Assembly: GCA_025929425.1 (NCBI GenBank)
Contig: JAICME010000002.1
Span: 1-58,621 of the forward strand
Reading direction: 5' to 3'
From: Thermoleophilia bacterium
GTDB taxonomy: Bacteria > Actinomycetota > Thermoleophilia > Gaiellales > Gaiellaceae
Length of the DNA: 58,621 nt
Part shown: one piece after another, positions 30,217 through 40,797 of the stretch
Layout: every line of letters begins with the position of its first letter
Position numbering within the stretch: position 1 is the stretch's first letter
Notes under the pieces: model-generated
Database searches by the model: none
The model's input: only the letters and a program-made list of their open reading frames with translations
Told to the model about the DNA's origin: nothing
Translations under genes and position numbers: made by a program

Positions 30217-32538
30217 CTACTCGCGCAGATGCGGGACGAACCGGGGATCGAGCGCCGCGAGCCCCAGAGCGGCGAGCGCCGCGCCGGCGACCGCGGGCAA
30301 CGCCACAGCGACGGAGAGTGGCGTGAGCAGGAAGAACTCGCGGGCGAACGGCGTGAGCAAGACGGCGACGTAGCCGGCCAGCAGCGTCGCAACGAGGAGC
30401 GCGACTGCACTGCTGCGACGGCGTCCCTCGGCCTCGAGGGCGAGAATCAGATAGAGCCCCACGAGGACGAGCGTCGTCGTCGCCACGGTGCGCGCTTCAC
30501 GAACGCCGAGGTCGAGGACGTTCAGGGCGAAGAAGTAGCTGGAGAGCACCCCGAGACCGGCGGCCGTGCCGGCCGGAAGCGAGAAACGGGCCAGCTCCCG
30601 GAGGAAACCCTGCGAGCTGTAGCCGCCGCGGCTGGGTGCGAGCGCGAGGAAGAAGCCGGGGATCCCGATCGTGAGGGAGGCGGCGAGGGTGAGGTGGCGC
30701 GGCAGCAGCGGGTAGGCGATCGGCGTGAGCCCGACGGAGAGGACGAGGAACGCGGCGAAGGCCGACTTCGTGACGAAGAGCTTCGCCACCCGCTGGACGT
30801 TCCGCAGGATCTTGCGGCCCTCGGCGACCATCGCGGGCACTGCGGAGAACTCGCTGTCGACGAGGACGACGTCCGCGACGGCGCGCGCCATCTGGGTGCC
30901 GCTGCCCTGGGCGATCGCGAGCCGTGCCGCCTTGAGCGCCGGCACGTCGTTCACGCCGTCTCCCACCATCGCCACGTAGCGCCCGGCGTCGCGGAGCGCC
31001 TCGACCACCCGTCGTTTCTCCTCCGGAGCGATGCGGCCGAAGATCGTCGTACGGAGAACGAGGCGACGTAGCTCCTCTTCGTCGCCGGGAAGCTGCGAGG
31101 CGTCGACGGCGGCGCCCTCGATCCCCGCGTCGTGCGCGATCGAGGCGACCGTTTCCGGCCGGTCGCCGGAAAGGACCTTCAGCTCGACCCCCTGGCTCTG
31201 CAGCCACGAGACCGTTGCGCGCGTCTCCGGCCGGAGGTCCTCGCTCAGCAGGACGAGCCCGCGGGCATCCGGGTGAGGATCGTCGAGCTCCGCAGCCGTG
31301 CCGAAGGCGAGCACGCGCCGTCCGTCGGCTGCTCCGCGCGCCGCATCGGCTGCGAGCTCGCCGAGGCTGAAGTGCTCGGGAGCGCCGAGCACGTAGCCGA
31401 CACCGTGGAGCCGTTGGCCGCCGAACCGGCGCCGGGACGAGAACGGCAGCTCGTCTTCGGCGGCGACCCGAGCCGCGGGATAGGCGGCGGCGATCGCCTC
31501 CAGCGTTCCGTTCCTCGTCCCGGCCGCTGCGGCGTACATCCCCAGCTCCTGCGCGAGCGAGCCCGGGCCGACGAGCTCGACGACGCGCAGGCGCGGCTGC
31601 GTCAGGGTTCCCGTCTTGTCCAGGCACACGACGTCCACCGAGGCGAGCGACTCGGTTGCGTTGAGCTGTTGGGCGAGAGCGCCGAGCCGAGCCATGCGCA
31701 GAGCCGCGACGGCGTAGGTCAGGCTCGCGAGGAGGATCAGCCCTTCCGGGATCAGCGTGACGACGGCGGCGACGGAGGTCGGGACTGCGGTGCCGACGGC
31801 GGCGTGACGGTGCCAGAGCGCGTATCCGAGGACGGCACCGAGGGGGACGAGCACCGCGACGAGGACGAAGAGGAGGCGGTTCAGTGCACGCTCGAGCGGC
31901 GAGCGAGGATGGCGGAACGATCGAGCCTGGCCGGTCAATCGCTCCGCATAGCTGTCGCGGCCGACCGCGCTGACCACGTACTCCCCCACGCCTTCGACCA
32001 CGAACGAGCCCGAGCGCACGCCGTCTCCCGCCGTCCTCTGCACCGGCCGCGACTCGCCGGTGAGGATCGACTCGTCGAGTTGGAGCCACTGCGTCCACTG
32101 AAGTGACCCGTCGGCGACGATCTGGTCTCCCGGTCCCGCGCGCACGAGATCGCCGACGACGACCTCCTCGACGGGCATCTGGTTCGCCTCCCCGTCCCTC
32201 ACGACGGTGGCGTGCGGGGCGACGAGGGCGCTGAGCCTGTCGAGCGCTCGCTTGGCCCGTACTTCCTGTCCCGTTCCGATCGTCGCGTTCGCAACCAGGA
32301 CGCCGAGGAAGAGCGCGTCCTGCCATTCCCCGAAGGCGAGCGTCGCAGCGCCCGCCACGCCGAGGATGAGGTTGAAGACGGTGAAGACGTTGGCCCGGAC
32401 GATGCTCGCGTAGGAGCGGCTGCTGCGGCGTGCGGACGGCGGATTGCTCGCGGCCAGCCGCCGCGCTGCCTCGACCCGGGAGAGCCCGCGAGAGCGCTCG
32501 GCGCTCGTCGACGGCACGAGGGATGGGGTTGCGAGCAT
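30217..32538 (-). CDS. CtpE-like cation-transporting P-type ATPase
   Basis: 773 residues from ATG 32538, preceded by GGGAGAGG. The P-ATPase core is complete: actuator 'DESILTGES', membrane 'TLIPEGLILL' (PEGL), phosphorylation 'CLDKTGTLT', hinge '[14 protein letters not shown]'. No N-terminal metal-binding domain is present. The PEGL motif in place of CPx and the overall layout resemble mycobacterial CtpE, which has been linked to calcium uptake; ion specificity here is inferred. The track ORF of 1040 residues starts in antisense of the next gene and is wrong. It is divergent from the EamA-ATPase fusion gene across 162 bp. Confidence 0.88.
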   Translation of the reverse strand: MLATPSLVPSTSAERSRGLSRVEAARRLAASNPPSARRSSRSYASIVRANVFTVFNLILGVAGAATLAFGEWQDALFLGVLVANATIGTGQEVRAKRALDRLSALVAPHATVVRDGEANQMPVEEVVVGDLVRAGPGDQIVADGSLQWTQWLQLDESILTGESRPVQRTAGDGVRSGSFVVEGVGEYVVSAVGRDSYAERLTGQARSFRHPRSPLERALNRLLFVLVAVLVPLGAVLGYALWHRHAAVGTAVPTSVAAVVTLIPEGLILLASLTYAVAALRMARLGALAQQLNATESLASVDVVCLDKTGTLTQPRLRVVELVGPGSLAQELGMYAAAAGTRNGTLEAIAAAYPAARVAAEDELPFSSRRRFGGQRLHGVGYVLGAPEHFSLGELAADAARGAADGRRVLAFGTAAELDDPHPDARGLVLLSEDLRPETRATVSWLQSQGVELKVLSGDRPETVASIAHDAGIEGAAVDASQLPGDEEELRRLVLRTTIFGRIAPEEKRRVVEALRDAGRYVAMVGDGVNDVPALKAARLAIAQGSGTQMARAVADVVLVDSEFSAVPAMVAEGRKILRNVQRVAKLFVTKSAFAAFLVLSVGLTPIAYPLLPRHLTLAASLTIGIPGFFLALAPSRGGYSSQGFLRELARFSLPAGTAAGLGVLSSYFFALNVLDLGVREARTVATTTLVLVGLYLILALEAEGRRRSSAVALLVATLLAGYVAVLLTPFAREFFLLTPLSVAVALPAVAGAALAALGLAALDPRFVPHLRE

Positions 32539-32700
32539 GACTGCGGTCCTCTCCCTCTTGTACCGCGGCGGGGGCGGCGGCGATTCGGCGGAAACCCGCT
32601 GACTGTCTGCGGCCAACTCCCGAGGCCGGCGAAGCCCCCGGAGCGGAGCATGAAGAAGATGGCTGAAGTACGTGCAGATACGGGCTGAGGCGAGGGCGTC

Positions 32701-35403
32701 GTGCAGACGGCAGTCGGACTCTCCCTCGCCCTCGTCTCCGCCATCCTCGTCAACTGGGCGTATGCGCGCGAGCATGACGCAGCGGCCGAGATGCCGCGCT
32801 TCTCGCCGCGTCGACCGGTCGAGTTCGTGCGGCTTCTGCTCGCCGACCGGTTCTGGGTGCGAGCGTTCGCCACCGAGAGCATCGGCTGGCTGATCTACGT
32901 CGCTGCCTTGCGGCTTGCGCCGCTGTCTCTCGTCCAGGCGGTCTGCGCTTCCGGAATCGCGGTCCTGGCGCTGGTCAGCGTGCAGGGGCGGCCGGGACGA
33001 CTTGCCGCGCACGAGCGACTCGCGGTGCTTCTGGCCCTCGGCGGCCTCGTTCTCCTCTCCCTGTCGATCGTCGGCACCCATCAGGCCGACCATCCTCCCC
33101 ACCCCGCCGCGGTCGCTTTGTGGCTCGGGCTCCTCCTGGCCGCCGCGGTCGGGCTCGGCCGGAGGAGATCCGGTCTCGCGGTCGGGCCGGCACTCGGCCT
33201 GACGGCAGGGCTCCTCTTCGCCGGCGGTGACATCTCGGCCAAGCTCGTCGTCTACGGCGGCCCCTGGCTCGCGGCGGCAGCGACGCTCGTCGTCTTCTAC
33301 GGCCTCGGGACGAGCGTCCTCCAGAGCTCGTTCCAGCATGCGGACGCACTCACCGGAGCCGGTCTCGCGACGCTGGCCACGAACGCGGTCCCCATCGCAG
33401 CCGGCTTCGTCGTCTTCGGCGAGCAGCTACCGCACGGCACGAAGGGCACGCTGCAGGTGGCTTCCTTCGGCCTCCTCGTGCTGAGCGGCGTACTGCTCGC
33501 GCGAGTGCCGAGGAGGAGCTCGGCCGCCGCGCGACCGCGCGGGCCGGCGATCTCCGTGGATGCGGTGCGCCGGCACGGCCGGCGCCTCGTCGCAGCCACG
33601 GCTCTGGCCGGCGTCTTGGGAGGCATCGTTCTGTTCGCGCTGGGCCAGCGGCTGGCCGCGGACTGGTTCTGGGCGGCAACGACGGCGCTGCTCCTCGGAC
33701 CGCTTGCGCTCTCCGTTCTCCGCTCGCTCCTGCGTCGGGATGTCGGCGTCGACGCGATCGCGCTCGTGGCGATGGCAGGTGCGCTCGGGCTCGGCGAGTA
33801 CCTGGCCGGAGCGGTGATCGCGCTCATGCTCGCGGGCGGCAACGCCCTCGAGGAGACGGCCAACCGGCGCGCCAAGCGCGAGCTGACAGCGTTGGTCGAT
33901 CGCGCCCCGCGGGTCGCGCTGCTACGGCGCGGGGACGAGGTGATCAAGGTCGACGTCGACCAGGTAGGCGTCGGCGACCGCATCCTCGTACGTGCGGGCG
34001 AAGTCGTTCCGGTGGACGGGATGGTCGAAAGCGAGGAGGCGATCGTCGACGAGTCGGCGCTCACCGGTGAGCCGCTGCCGGTCACGGTGCGCCGCGGCGG
34101 ACAGGTACGCAGTGGGACGACGAGCGCAGGGGCGCCGTTCGAGGTGACGGCGATCCGGCCGGCGGCCGAGAGCGCCTACGCCGCGCTCGTGCGACTCGTC
34201 GAGCATGCGGAGCAGGAGCGAGCGCCGTTCGTCCGTCTCGCCGACCGCTATGCGGCGATCTTCCTCCCCGTCACGACCGCCGTCGCGGGAATCGCCTGGG
34301 CGGTCTCGGGAGATGCCGTCCGGGCTCTCGCCGTCTTCGTCGTGGCCACTCCGTGCCCACTCATCCTCGCCGCGCCGATCGCGCTCATGTCGGGTCTCTC
34401 CCGGTGCGCGCGCGCCGGCATCGTCGTCAAGGGAGCCGCCACGATCGAACAGCTCGGCGAAGCGCACTCCGTGCTCCTCGACAAGACCGGCACCGTCACG
34501 CTCGGCCACCCGGAGCTCGAGCGCGTCGCACCGCTCGACGGCATGGATCCCGACGAGACGCTCCGCCTTGCAGCGAGTGTCGATCAGCTCTCCTCGCATC
34601 CCCTCGCCCATGCCCTCGTTGCGGGAGCCGGCGCCAGGGGACTCCACCTCGAGCTGCCGGGGCACGTCCGCGAGTCCTTCGGCCGCGGGATCTCCGGCGA
34701 GGTCGACGGCCACGAGGTGCTGGTCGGCAGCTGGAACTGGCTGAACGAGCACGGGATCGAGGCCACCGTCCCCGCGGAGCTCGACGGCGCGGCGAAGGTC
34801 CTGGTCGCCGTGGACGGCCGGCCGGTCGGCGTCGCGCTGATCGGCGACCGTCTGCGCGCCGACGCGGGCCGGCTCGTTCCGCGGCTCCGCGAGGCAGGCA
34901 TCCGACACGTCGCTCTCGTCACCGGCGACAAGGCTGCGACGGCCGACGAGGTCGGCGCAACGCTGGGAGTCGATCGCGTCTACTCCGAGCAGAGCCCTGC
35001 AGAGAAGCTCGAGATCGTGCGGGCACTCCAGTCGCAGCCCGAGCTGCACTCGATCGTGATGGTCGGAGACGGCATCAACGACGCTCCGGCGCTTGCACTC
35101 GCGGACGTGGGCGTCGCGATGGGGTCCGCCGGTGCCACCGTCTCCTCCGAGACCGCGGACGCCGTGATCCTCGTCGACCGGGTCGACCGCATCGCGGAGG
35201 CGGTTCGGTTCAGCCGCCGCGCCATGTACATCGCCCGGCAGAGCGTCCTCCTCGGACTCGGCGCCTCACTCTGCGCGATGGGCTTCGCCGCGGCCGGCTA
35301 CCTGCCGCCGGTCGCCGGCGCGCTCCTGCAGGAAGGAATCGACGTCGCCGTGATCCTCAATGCGCTACGCGCCCTCACCGATTCACCGGAGGTGAAGCCA
35401 TGA
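32701..35403 (+). CDS. Fusion of EamA/NIPA-like transporter and P1B-type heavy-metal ATPase
   Basis: 900 residues in one frame from GTG 32701. Residues 1-~272 form about nine membrane helices of the drug/metabolite (EamA/NIPA-like) superfamily, for example 'IGWLIYVAALRLAPLSLVQA' and 'DALTGAGLATLATNAVPIAAGF'. From ~285 a P1B ATPase without an N-terminal metal domain follows: 'DESALTGEPLP', 'VATPCPLILAAP', 'LLDKTGTVT', 'HPLAHALVAG', 'VMVGDGINDAPAL'. The membrane motif is TPC rather than CPC, so it is not a standard Cu or Zn/Cd pump. No stop separates the parts. GTG 33556 could in principle start the ATPase alone. It is coupled to the USP gene by ATGA. Confidence 0.88.
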   Translation: MQTAVGLSLALVSAILVNWAYAREHDAAAEMPRFSPRRPVEFVRLLLADRFWVRAFATESIGWLIYVAALRLAPLSLVQAVCASGIAVLALVSVQGRPGRLAAHERLAVLLALGGLVLLSLSIVGTHQADHPPHPAAVALWLGLLLAAAVGLGRRRSGLAVGPALGLTAGLLFAGGDISAKLVVYGGPWLAAAATLVVFYGLGTSVLQSSFQHADALTGAGLATLATNAVPIAAGFVVFGEQLPHGTKGTLQVASFGLLVLSGVLLARVPRRSSAAARPRGPAISVDAVRRHGRRLVAATALAGVLGGIVLFALGQRLAADWFWAATTALLLGPLALSVLRSLLRRDVGVDAIALVAMAGALGLGEYLAGAVIALMLAGGNALEETANRRAKRELTALVDRAPRVALLRRGDEVIKVDVDQVGVGDRILVRAGEVVPVDGMVESEEAIVDESALTGEPLPVTVRRGGQVRSGTTSAGAPFEVTAIRPAAESAYAALVRLVEHAEQERAPFVRLADRYAAIFLPVTTAVAGIAWAVSGDAVRALAVFVVATPCPLILAAPIALMSGLSRCARAGIVVKGAATIEQLGEAHSVLLDKTGTVTLGHPELERVAPLDGMDPDETLRLAASVDQLSSHPLAHALVAGAGARGLHLELPGHVRESFGRGISGEVDGHEVLVGSWNWLNEHGIEATVPAELDGAAKVLVAVDGRPVGVALIGDRLRADAGRLVPRLREAGIRHVALVTGDKAATADEVGATLGVDRVYSEQSPAEKLEIVRALQSQPELHSIVMVGDGINDAPALALADVGVAMGSAGATVSSETADAVILVDRVDRIAEAVRFSRRAMYIARQSVLLGLGASLCAMGFAAAGYLPPVAGALLQEGIDVAVILNALRALTDSPEVKP

Positions 35404-36206
35404 CCGCCACACGCACATCCAGACCCGCAACCGACCTCACGCAGCCGTCCGTCTTCGAGCGGATCCTCGTCGGCGTCGACGGCGGAAAGCTGTCCTTCGA
35501 CGCCTGTCGCCAGGCCTCTCTTCTCGCCTCCCCGGAGACGGTCATCGAGGCAGCGACGGTGACGCTGTTCCCGCCGGCCACGGCGGCCGCGCTTGGCGCG
35601 AACGAGCTCGCTGCGGATCTCGAAGAGACCGCAGGATCGGCGCTCCTCGCAGCGCGACAGATCCTCGGCCCCCACGCCGAGCTGCGCCGGCTGGAGGGCA
35701 TCACGGTCGAAGTCCTGCTCGAGGAGGTGAAGCGGACGAAGCCGACCCTGCTCGCCATCGGTGCGCCCGAGCACCCGCGGGTCGAGGAGATCGTCTTCGG
35801 AGGAGTGGGCGGCGAGCTGCTGCACCAGGCGCGATGCTCGGTGCTGCTCGCGCGGCCGACTGCGGACGAGCGGAGCTTCCCGCGCACCATCGTCGTCGGC
35901 CTCGACGGCTCGAAGCAGGCCGAGCGTGCCTACGCGGTCGCACGCGAGATCGCGGAGCGGAGGCACAGCATGGTGCAGACCGTGGTTGCGCTCGGGGGCA
36001 AGCGCGTCGCCCTCGGCGAGATCGCGAAGCGCCACCGCGGCGTCGAGACGTCGCCGGCGTGCCCCGTCCCGGCCCTCGTCGCGGCTTCGGACTGTGCCGA
36101 CCTTCTCGTCGTGGGCAGCCGTGGCCTCCACGGCCCGCGGGCGCTCGGCAGCGTGTCCGAACGCGTGGCCCACCGCGCCCCCTGCTCGGTGCTCGTCGTC
36201 CGCTAA
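35400..36206 (+). CDS. Tandem-domain universal stress protein
   Basis: 268 residues; the ATG overlaps the ATPase stop (ATGA) and GGAGGTGA precedes it. Two UspA domains are present: 'ERILVGVDGGKLSFDACRQA' opens the first and 'TIVVGLDGSKQAERAYAVA' the second. The second domain has the ATP-binding tail 'LVVGSRGLHGPRALGSVSERVAHRAPCSVLVV' (G-2x-G-9x-G-S/T pattern). The first domain's tail 'IGAPEHPRVEEIVFGGVGGELL' is degenerate, so perhaps only one nucleotide site is active. Co-transcription with a metal pump suggests a stress-induced unit. Confidence 0.92.
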   Translation: MTATRTSRPATDLTQPSVFERILVGVDGGKLSFDACRQASLLASPETVIEAATVTLFPPATAAALGANELAADLEETAGSALLAARQILGPHAELRRLEGITVEVLLEEVKRTKPTLLAIGAPEHPRVEEIVFGGVGGELLHQARCSVLLARPTADERSFPRTIVVGLDGSKQAERAYAVAREIAERRHSMVQTVVALGGKRVALGEIAKRHRGVETSPACPVPALVAASDCADLLVVGSRGLHGPRALGSVSERVAHRAPCSVLVVR

Positions 36207-38862: not shown

Positions 38863-39123
38863 TCAGGCTGAGCCCCCGGCGAGCACCGCCTTCAGCTCGG
38901 CGATCGCGTTCTCGCCGACCGCGGCCACGATCTCAGGACGCTCGAGAAGCCGTGCACGCTCGCCCGGCGTCGACCAGGCGAGGACGTAGGGATCCTCGAG
39001 GATCTCGCCAAAGGCCCGTCCCTTTCGATGTTCGCGGAGCACGTATCGCTGCACGTACTGCTCGCGCCTCGTGGTCCCGAACAGGGACTTGAACGGACTT
39101 CTTCGCAACACAGGGGCTCGCAT
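38863..39123 (-). CDS. Hypothetical protein, 86 aa, upstream of dedA
   Basis: A basic N-terminus ('FKSLFGTTRREQYVQRYVLR') is followed by an acidic helical part ('DPYVLAWSTPGERARLLERPEIVAAVGENAIAEL'). No domain is recognised. It is 4 bp from DedA on the same strand and shares the 244-bp divergent region with a universal stress protein gene, so it is probably part of the same stress group. Confidence 0.6.
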   Translation of the reverse strand: MRAPVLRRSPFKSLFGTTRREQYVQRYVLREHRKGRAFGEILEDPYVLAWSTPGERARLLERPEIVAAVGENAIAELKAVLAGGSA

Positions 39124-39282
39124 CTTCGTCCTCCTCGTCGATCGTCTTCACCCGCCGGGACGCACGATCCGCTGTGCGCCACTGACTCCAATGGTTCCGC
39201 CTGGAGCACCCGGCGACCATGGGCTCCCCACCCGATCTGGAGCAGGTCATCGCCCCAGTCCTGGCCCCACCGCCCTCTGCAA

Positions 39283-39300
39283 ATGGGGGCAGCGCCCCAT
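39283..39300. promoter_or_regulatory. Dyad in the divergent USP/hypothetical promoter region
   Basis: ATGGGG-GCAGCG-CCCCAT is a perfect 6+6 bp inverted repeat, 68 bp upstream of the USP ATG, in a region with no ORF of its own. It could be a dimeric regulator site, for example for the NarL-type regulator encoded nearby. This is inference from position. Confidence 0.4.
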
Positions 39301-39367
39301 CGCGCAGCGAGCGTGCGCCGGTCACCCTGAGAGAGATCGTGCAGACGAACGGACCGGAGGAGGAACA

Positions 39368-39832
39368 ATGACCGGAGGGACTGTTGTATGCGGGGTGACC
39401 GAAAGCCCCGACGGCCGGGGTGCGGCCGAGCTGGCGCGCGCGCTCGGTGCGCGCCTGGGGCTACGGCTGGTGCTCGTACACGTCGTCGACGGCGTGCCCG
39501 CGGGCACCCACGAGAGCCTGTCCGCCCGGCAGCGACAGGCTGGAGCCGAGCGGACCCTCGACCAGATCGCCCACGGCATGGACGAACGCGCCGAGAAGCG
39601 GGTCATGGTCGGAGACCGCGCCGACGCCCTCGCGAGGGTCGCTGCGGAGGAGGGCGCCGACCTCATCGTGATCGGTTCGAGGCCTGCAGGCCTCGGCAAT
39701 CGCAAGCTGCGCTGCACGCTCGCGCGCGAGCTCGAGGCCGCCACGCCGATCCCTGTCGTCGTCGCACCGCCGACGACACGGGAGCGCACGAACCACCGCC
39801 TCGCGGTCGCAGCCGGCGCGTCTACGCGCTAG
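39368..39832 (+). CDS. Single-domain universal stress protein
   Basis: 154 residues; ATG 39368 has GGAGGAGG five nt upstream. UspA fold: 'VVCGVTESPDGRGAAELARAL' at the start and 'LIVIGSRPAGLGNRKLRCTLARELEAATPIPVVVAP' at the end. The glycine-rich loop (GSRPAGLGNRKLRCTLA) lacks the canonical G-9x-G-S/T, so ATP binding is uncertain. It is 26 bp upstream of the histidine kinase gene and likely in one transcript with the two-component pair. Confidence 0.85.
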   Translation: MTGGTVVCGVTESPDGRGAAELARALGARLGLRLVLVHVVDGVPAGTHESLSARQRQAGAERTLDQIAHGMDERAEKRVMVGDRADALARVAAEEGADLIVIGSRPAGLGNRKLRCTLARELEAATPIPVVVAPPTTRERTNHRLAVAAGASTR

Positions 39833-39858
39833 TACGCTCGGCAACAATTCGACGACCG

Positions 39859-40797
39859 ATGCATTTCTCTCGGCTTCCCCTGCTCTGGCGGGTCTTCGCC
39901 ATCAACGCGGCGCTGCTGGTCGCCGCGACGTTGCTGCTCGCGCTCACGCCGATCACGATCCACGCCAGGATCGCGATCGTCGAGGGCCTCGACCTCGCGG
40001 TCGCGCTGGTCGTGATGCTCGCCGCCAATCTCCTGCTGCTCCGACAAACGCTTCGTCCGATCGACCGTCTCGTGGAGCGGATGCGCAAGATCGATCTTCT
40101 CCAACCGGGCCAGCGGATCCCCGAACGCGGCGGCGTCGAGGTCGCCGAGCTGACGCACACGTTCAACGAGATGCTCGACCGGCTGGAGACCGAGCGGCGC
40201 GAGAGCGGGCAACGGGCGCTGCGCGCGCAGGAGGCAGAACGGCGCCGCATCGCCAGCGGCCTCCACGACGAGGTCGGGCAGGTTCTGACCGGGGTCCTGC
40301 TCCGTCTCGACGACGACGAGACCAAGCAGGCGGTGCGGCAGGCGCTCGAGGAGGTGCGGAGGATCGGGCGAGAGCTGCGCCCGGAGATGCTCGAACAGCT
40401 GGGGCTCGTCAGCGCGCTGACGGAGCTCTCGCGGAGGTTCGCGGACTCGAGCGGCGCCCGCGTCGACCGGCAGTTCGCCACCGACCTGCCGCCGCTCTCG
40501 GACGAGGCCGAGCTCGCCGTCTATCGCGTGGCACAGGAAAGCCTCACGAACATCGCCAGGCATGCCGACGCGTCCCGGGTCGAGATCGCCCTCCAGCCAG
40601 GAGCGGAGAGCGTCGTCCTCCGGGTCTCCGACGACGGACGCGGAATTCCCGGTCCCGATGCCTCCGCGCTCAACGGGCACAGCGGCCTGCGCGGCATGCG
40701 TGAGCGTGCACTTCTCGTCGGCGGCGCGCTCGCGATCAAGCGCGGGACTGACGGAGGCGTCGAGGTGAGGTTCGAAGTGCCGGCGGAAGAGCGCTGA
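39859..40797 (+). CDS. NarL-type sensor histidine kinase
   Basis: 312 residues. Two closely spaced N-terminal membrane helices ('LLVAATLLLALTPITIHA', 'LDLAVALVVMLAANLLLL') leave almost no extracytoplasmic sensor, followed by a HAMP-like segment ('LRPIDRLVERMRKIDL'). The HisKA_3 box has the phospho-acceptor His in 'GLHDEVGQVLTGV', then the HATPase 'SLTNIARHA' (N-box) and 'VSDDGRGIPG' (G1). It probably senses a membrane or internal cue and phosphorylates the next gene's product, with which it overlaps by 1 nt. Confidence 0.92.
   Translation: MHFSRLPLLWRVFAINAALLVAATLLLALTPITIHARIAIVEGLDLAVALVVMLAANLLLLRQTLRPIDRLVERMRKIDLLQPGQRIPERGGVEVAELTHTFNEMLDRLETERRESGQRALRAQEAERRRIASGLHDEVGQVLTGVLLRLDDDETKQAVRQALEEVRRIGRELRPEMLEQLGLVSALTELSRRFADSSGARVDRQFATDLPPLSDEAELAVYRVAQESLTNIARHADASRVEIALQPGAESVVLRVSDDGRGIPGPDASALNGHSGLRGMRERALLVGGALAIKRGTDGGVEVRFEVPAEER

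Follow-up and report, generated by a model that had tools for sequence, protein, structure and literature searches.

In the window, that is, the whole stretch of 58,621 nucleotides of Thermoleophilia DNA, from an uncultured actinobacterium, that was analysed, a NIPA-like gene situated between divergent P-type ATPase genes has probably lost its stop and reads into the gene of a P1B heavy-metal ATPase. We assign to this lineage-specific fusion a probability of about 0.7. According to the scenario proposed, the NIPA-like gene, which stands alone in relatives, would have moved into the region 5′ of a pump gene already present, and loss of its stop would have allowed the frame to run straight into the ATPase. 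The expected product is a single polypeptide crossing the membrane with about 17 helices, in which an N-out/C-in NIPA part is followed by a positively charged cytosolic linker of roughly 20–30 residues and then by a normal pump. The NIPA part may retain transport activity of its own or be a passenger. The following features describe the fused gene:

32701–35403, + strand: fused open reading frame of 900 aa, GTG start, TGA stop at 35401–35403, no internal stops
32701–33504, + strand: NIPA-like domain, residues 1–268, nine predicted helices, based on alignment and a PDB profile match
33505–33588, + strand: Arg/Ala/Pro-rich linker, residues 269–296, net positive, its end overlapping the initial turns of helix MA of the ATPase
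33556–35400, + strand: P1B heavy-metal ATPase, residues 286–900, with eight membrane helices and the A, P and N domains (TIGR01525)
34348–34356, + strand: TPC metal-site motif in M4, residues 550–552
34480–34494, + strand: DKTGT phosphorylation motif, residues 594–598

The fused frame and its two halves

A secondary transporter joined in frame to a complete heavy-metal ATPase had been described in the initial annotation, and this description is borne out by 900 stop-free codons with homology on both sides. The first start of the frame, GTG 32701, lies directly downstream of an in-frame TGA at 32686 and is preceded by GAGGG at close spacing. Taken alone, an open frame over a single gene border is weak evidence at a GC content of 72%; read in its remaining forward frames, the fused gene shows 14 and 3 stops over 900 codons. 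Since the NIPA-like half and the pump half have independent homologues, the fused frame is more than an accident of base composition. Between 33300 and 33800 there is a single out-of-frame forward stop; it is located at 33482, within the final helix of the NIPA part, and this position rules out that a one-base indel error in the linker merged two normal genes. As the NIPA frame is without its own stop, a separate NIPA protein cannot be produced from the window sequence, and any ribosome engaged on the NIPA part has to continue into the pump. As read from the sequence, the in-frame join of the two genes looks real.

The estimate of about nine helices in the transporter half agrees with hydropathy, which gives nine hydrophobic segments before residue 270 of the fused protein. 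The label “EamA/NIPA-like” held in part. A family profile made from alignment A1 (the window protein and 33 homologues, 27 invariant columns) matches the PDB NIPA2 chain 9z6n with E = 1.1e-5 over residues 3–122, while the match to Pfam NIPA (PF05653; residues 4–119, 16.1–18.9 bits) is weak and lies below the gathering cutoff of 26.2. The NIPA fold label is moderately supported for this half. With NIPA magnesium transporters it has in common the profile likeness over the first half and the nine predicted helices; the window protein differs from them in its score below the Pfam cutoff and in being bacterial and fused. The NIPA part departs at 2 of 41 near-invariant columns, with a range of 0–3 in homologues, and is apparently intact and undegraded. 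Modelled alone from the single sequence, it gave helices only, at low confidence (pLDDT 49), and in the full-length model its pLDDT is about 35–55; modelling thus did not confirm the NIPA fold, which counts against the main reading.

Most NIPA homologues terminate no more than a few dozen codons away from residue 268. In the model pLDDT is under 50 for residues 264–286, and helix MA begins at residue 286. The linker contains 8 K/R against 1 D/E, and positive residues are found mostly in loops expected inside. Such positive-inside charges fit an N-out/C-in orientation of the NIPA part with a cytosolic linker. In P1B pumps the N-terminus is cytosolic as well. With the end of the NIPA part and the beginning of the pump thus both predicted to face the cytosol, the chimera is physically plausible.

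A complete P1B ATPase occupies residues about 286–895, and the NCBIfam heavy-metal ATPase model TIGR01525 scores 509 bits against a cutoff of 346 (E 1e-152, residues 350–890). Helices MA/MB and M1–M6 are all present, and hydropathy gives the usual eight P1B segments after residue 295; two extra matches, at 696–714 and 797–815, fall in soluble domains of the model, which has pLDDT of mostly 85–97 over the pump half. Besides DKTGT, the motifs TGEP (455–458), HP (633–634) and GDGINDAP (789–796) were found. As had been claimed, the ATPase is devoid of its own N-terminal metal-binding domain, none being found in the C-terminal half. No C-terminal hemerythrin-like domain is present either, the frame ending 10 residues after NALR, and the Thermoleophilia pump orthologues read out likewise lack this tail.

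In M4 the pump carries TPC, which we take to be the mark of P1B-5, instead of the CPC of P1B-1 and P1B-2 pumps for Cu and Zn/Cd. This difference had been correctly recognized, while the idea that it hints at an unusual substrate has to be corrected here: TPC is conserved among the pump's closest relatives, including congener G007 and the Sinorhizobium (S.) meliloti ATPase L222, and judging by these sequences it is the norm in the subfamily. With the P1B-5 ATPases S. meliloti Nia and Acidothermus cellulolyticus P1B-5 the pump also shares eight helices, QExxD...NALR in M6 and the absence of an N-terminal metal domain. The most informative relative is L222, encoded on a plasmid, which is 52% identical over 575 residues, ends with a PF01814 hemerythrin domain and is probably Nia-like. 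A hemerythrin-like C-terminal domain has been described for some P1B-5 ATPases (PMC9388753), and the reported substrates of Nia are Ni2+ and Fe2+ (PMC4932525). Unlike the P1B-5 pumps with such a tail, the window pump has instead a NIPA-like transporter at its N-terminus. From its family we infer that the pump half exports a divalent transition metal, most likely Ni2+ or Fe2+, by the usual ATP-driven phosphorylation cycle.

Occurrence of the fusion and origin of the NIPA-like part

When a 213-residue junction query was compared with 103 genomes of the family, the genome of the window was the only one to span the junction. The pump match in the other family genomes does not start before residue ~265 of the frame, and the NIPA match, in many cases crossing a stop, reaches to somewhere between about residues 270 and 320. 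Across the class (399 genomes) about 68 ATPase orthologues were registered, with at least 54% identity among the matches listed; all of them are pump-only, and the earliest query residue in the class pump matches listed is 242. NIPA-like genes occur in 59 of these 399 genomes, the window's own counted, and among the other class genomes tested none is fused to a P1B pump or placed beside it. In the phylum sample the other NIPA-like genes are mostly in ~300-codon frames, a few longer frames lying outside the readout. Thus, the proposed search for the same fusion across actinobacteria, carried out in the class and in the phylum sample, gave no second case. No match covering both halves was found among the matches listed for a contig collection of 84,980 species or in plasmids, and titles and abstracts from literature searches describe no P-type ATPase fused to EamA or to a secondary transporter.

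The fusion is therefore a singleton among the genomes searched: both halves belong to known kinds, and their combination is unique in this set. A conserved fusion, or a conserved adjacency of two genes, was rejected because the halves are separate in all other genomes searched. For the same reason the event is probably a recent one-off, and the fact that the P1B gene never stands beside the other NIPA-like genes tested argues against an established functional partnership. Lacking a second example, a recent and perhaps neutral fusion is the simplest reading.

Two congeners, G012 and G002, have a NIPA-like gene from the clade of the window's NIPA part (53–55% identity); it adjoins an msrA-like gene, so named from reading the translation alone:

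L187:2451–3969: stand-alone NIPA-like gene with msrA-like gene, G012
L028:1567–3367: stand-alone NIPA-like gene with msrA-like gene, G002

A homologue of the msrA-like gene of G012 is present in the window at about 2.6–3.3 kb, at a distance of ~29 kb from the fused gene. At E 1e-30 the genome of the window contains no second NIPA-like copy. Among NIPA-like relatives the nearest, 62% identical, comes from G166, a genome of another family, with moderate tree support (86/84). Both relocation and horizontal transfer are possible as the source of the NIPA part.

Long frames at other NIPA-like loci are mostly upstream extensions without gene evidence, and four are putative esterase fusions. In these four genomes (G020, G208, G235, G265), which represent four species of one genus (g6), a related NIPA-like module is fused C-terminally to a PF00756 putative esterase; Pfam was run for three of them and L175 was assigned by sequence similarity:

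L168:1585–3291, + strand: NIPA-like/esterase fusion
L167:1098–2837, − strand: NIPA-like/esterase fusion
L181:1377–3077, − strand: NIPA-like/esterase fusion
L175: NIPA-like/esterase fusion, 3′ open

The module belongs to the same wider family as the window's NIPA part and to a different clade. Unlike the fusion in the window, the one with esterase is common to several species.

Comparison with G007 and alternative explanations

Upstream of the fused gene the window contains:

30217–32538, − strand: divergent second P-type ATPase of the cation family (PF00122/PF00702)
32539–32700: intergenic space separating the fused gene from the divergent ATPase, compared with G007 contig C94

In congener G007, a member of the same class, the divergent ATPase (75% protein identity to that of the window) and the P1B pump adjoin across a short gap. 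The pump of G007 is 71% identical to that of the window, has the same TPC and the same divergent neighbour and likewise lacks the hemerythrin tail. In contrast to the window, it has no NIPA-like part and begins approximately at the position of the window's linker. The shared flanks have ~75% DNA identity. The window thus has a single gene inserted at a clean position.

Two candidate internal starts were considered:

33556–33567, + strand: possible internal starts GTG 33556 and GTG 33565, no upstream Shine-Dalgarno sequence

It is conceivable, though rather unlikely, that initiation at one of these codons yields the pump by itself as the main product, the NIPA part being poorly translated or a fading remnant and the fused frame of little significance for the cell. 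ATPase orthologues begin at matching places, open frames extend easily at this GC content and the fusion is known from one genome, all of which would agree with such a start. A Shine-Dalgarno sequence was sought before both GTGs and not found, in contrast to GTG 32701 with its GAGGG; this, the undegraded state of the NIPA part and the lack of a stop in its frame speak against such a start. The initial annotation had named as arguments against the fusion that homologues are always encoded as two genes and that translation starts internally, for instance at 33556; the former was observed, whereas the latter finds no backing in these sequence signals. An artefact, in which a separating stop between adjacent genes was miscalled or the contig is chimeric, is improbable. 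The source assembly, the only one with the join, is fragmented and incomplete (197 contigs, 86% complete), and one substitution at a stop codon could possibly open the frame. However, single linker indels cannot yield the fused frame, and since the NIPA gene sits precisely between the neighbours known from G007, two joins, both of them matched, would be required for a chimeric contig, which synteny thus makes unlikely.

Least probable of all is a functional coupling device, in which the NIPA part would transport or exchange a divalent ion, e.g. Mg2+, in concert with metal efflux driven by the pump, or would replace the missing metal-binding domain. The compatible topology of the halves and the ties of both families to divalent cations are in line with it, but the two genes are neither fused nor side by side in any relative, and orthologous pumps exist without any N-terminal domain and thus have no need for one. 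That a NIPA/DMT-type secondary transporter and an ATP-driven metal pump act here as one machine, for instance in coupled divalent-ion exchange, also seems very doubtful. The lineage-specific fusion is preferred, and the esterase fusion of a related NIPA-like clade at the same, C-terminal end was counted in its support. Provided that the 900-aa protein is produced and active, it would be a rare fusion of a secondary transporter with a primary pump and would offer a natural test of substrate sharing by two transporters in one chain. At present it mainly illustrates the birth of gene fusions between neighbouring genes in GC-rich genomes.

Neighbouring genes of the pump

Immediately downstream of the fusion lies another gene:

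35400–36206, + strand: universal stress protein gene with two Usp stretches, its ATG overlapping the stop codon of the fusion as ATGA and preceded by GGAGGTGA

A second P-type ATPase adjoins the P1B-5-like pump both in the window (30217–32538 / 33556–35400) and in several actinobacterial loci; this pairing was seen in L185, L039, L046, L048, L054, L060, L061 and, in S. meliloti, L222, and may represent an old functional unit. Near the pump there are universal stress protein genes together with a histidine kinase of the HisKA_3 type (35400–36206, 39071–39832, 39532–40797), which suggests a stress-response cluster.
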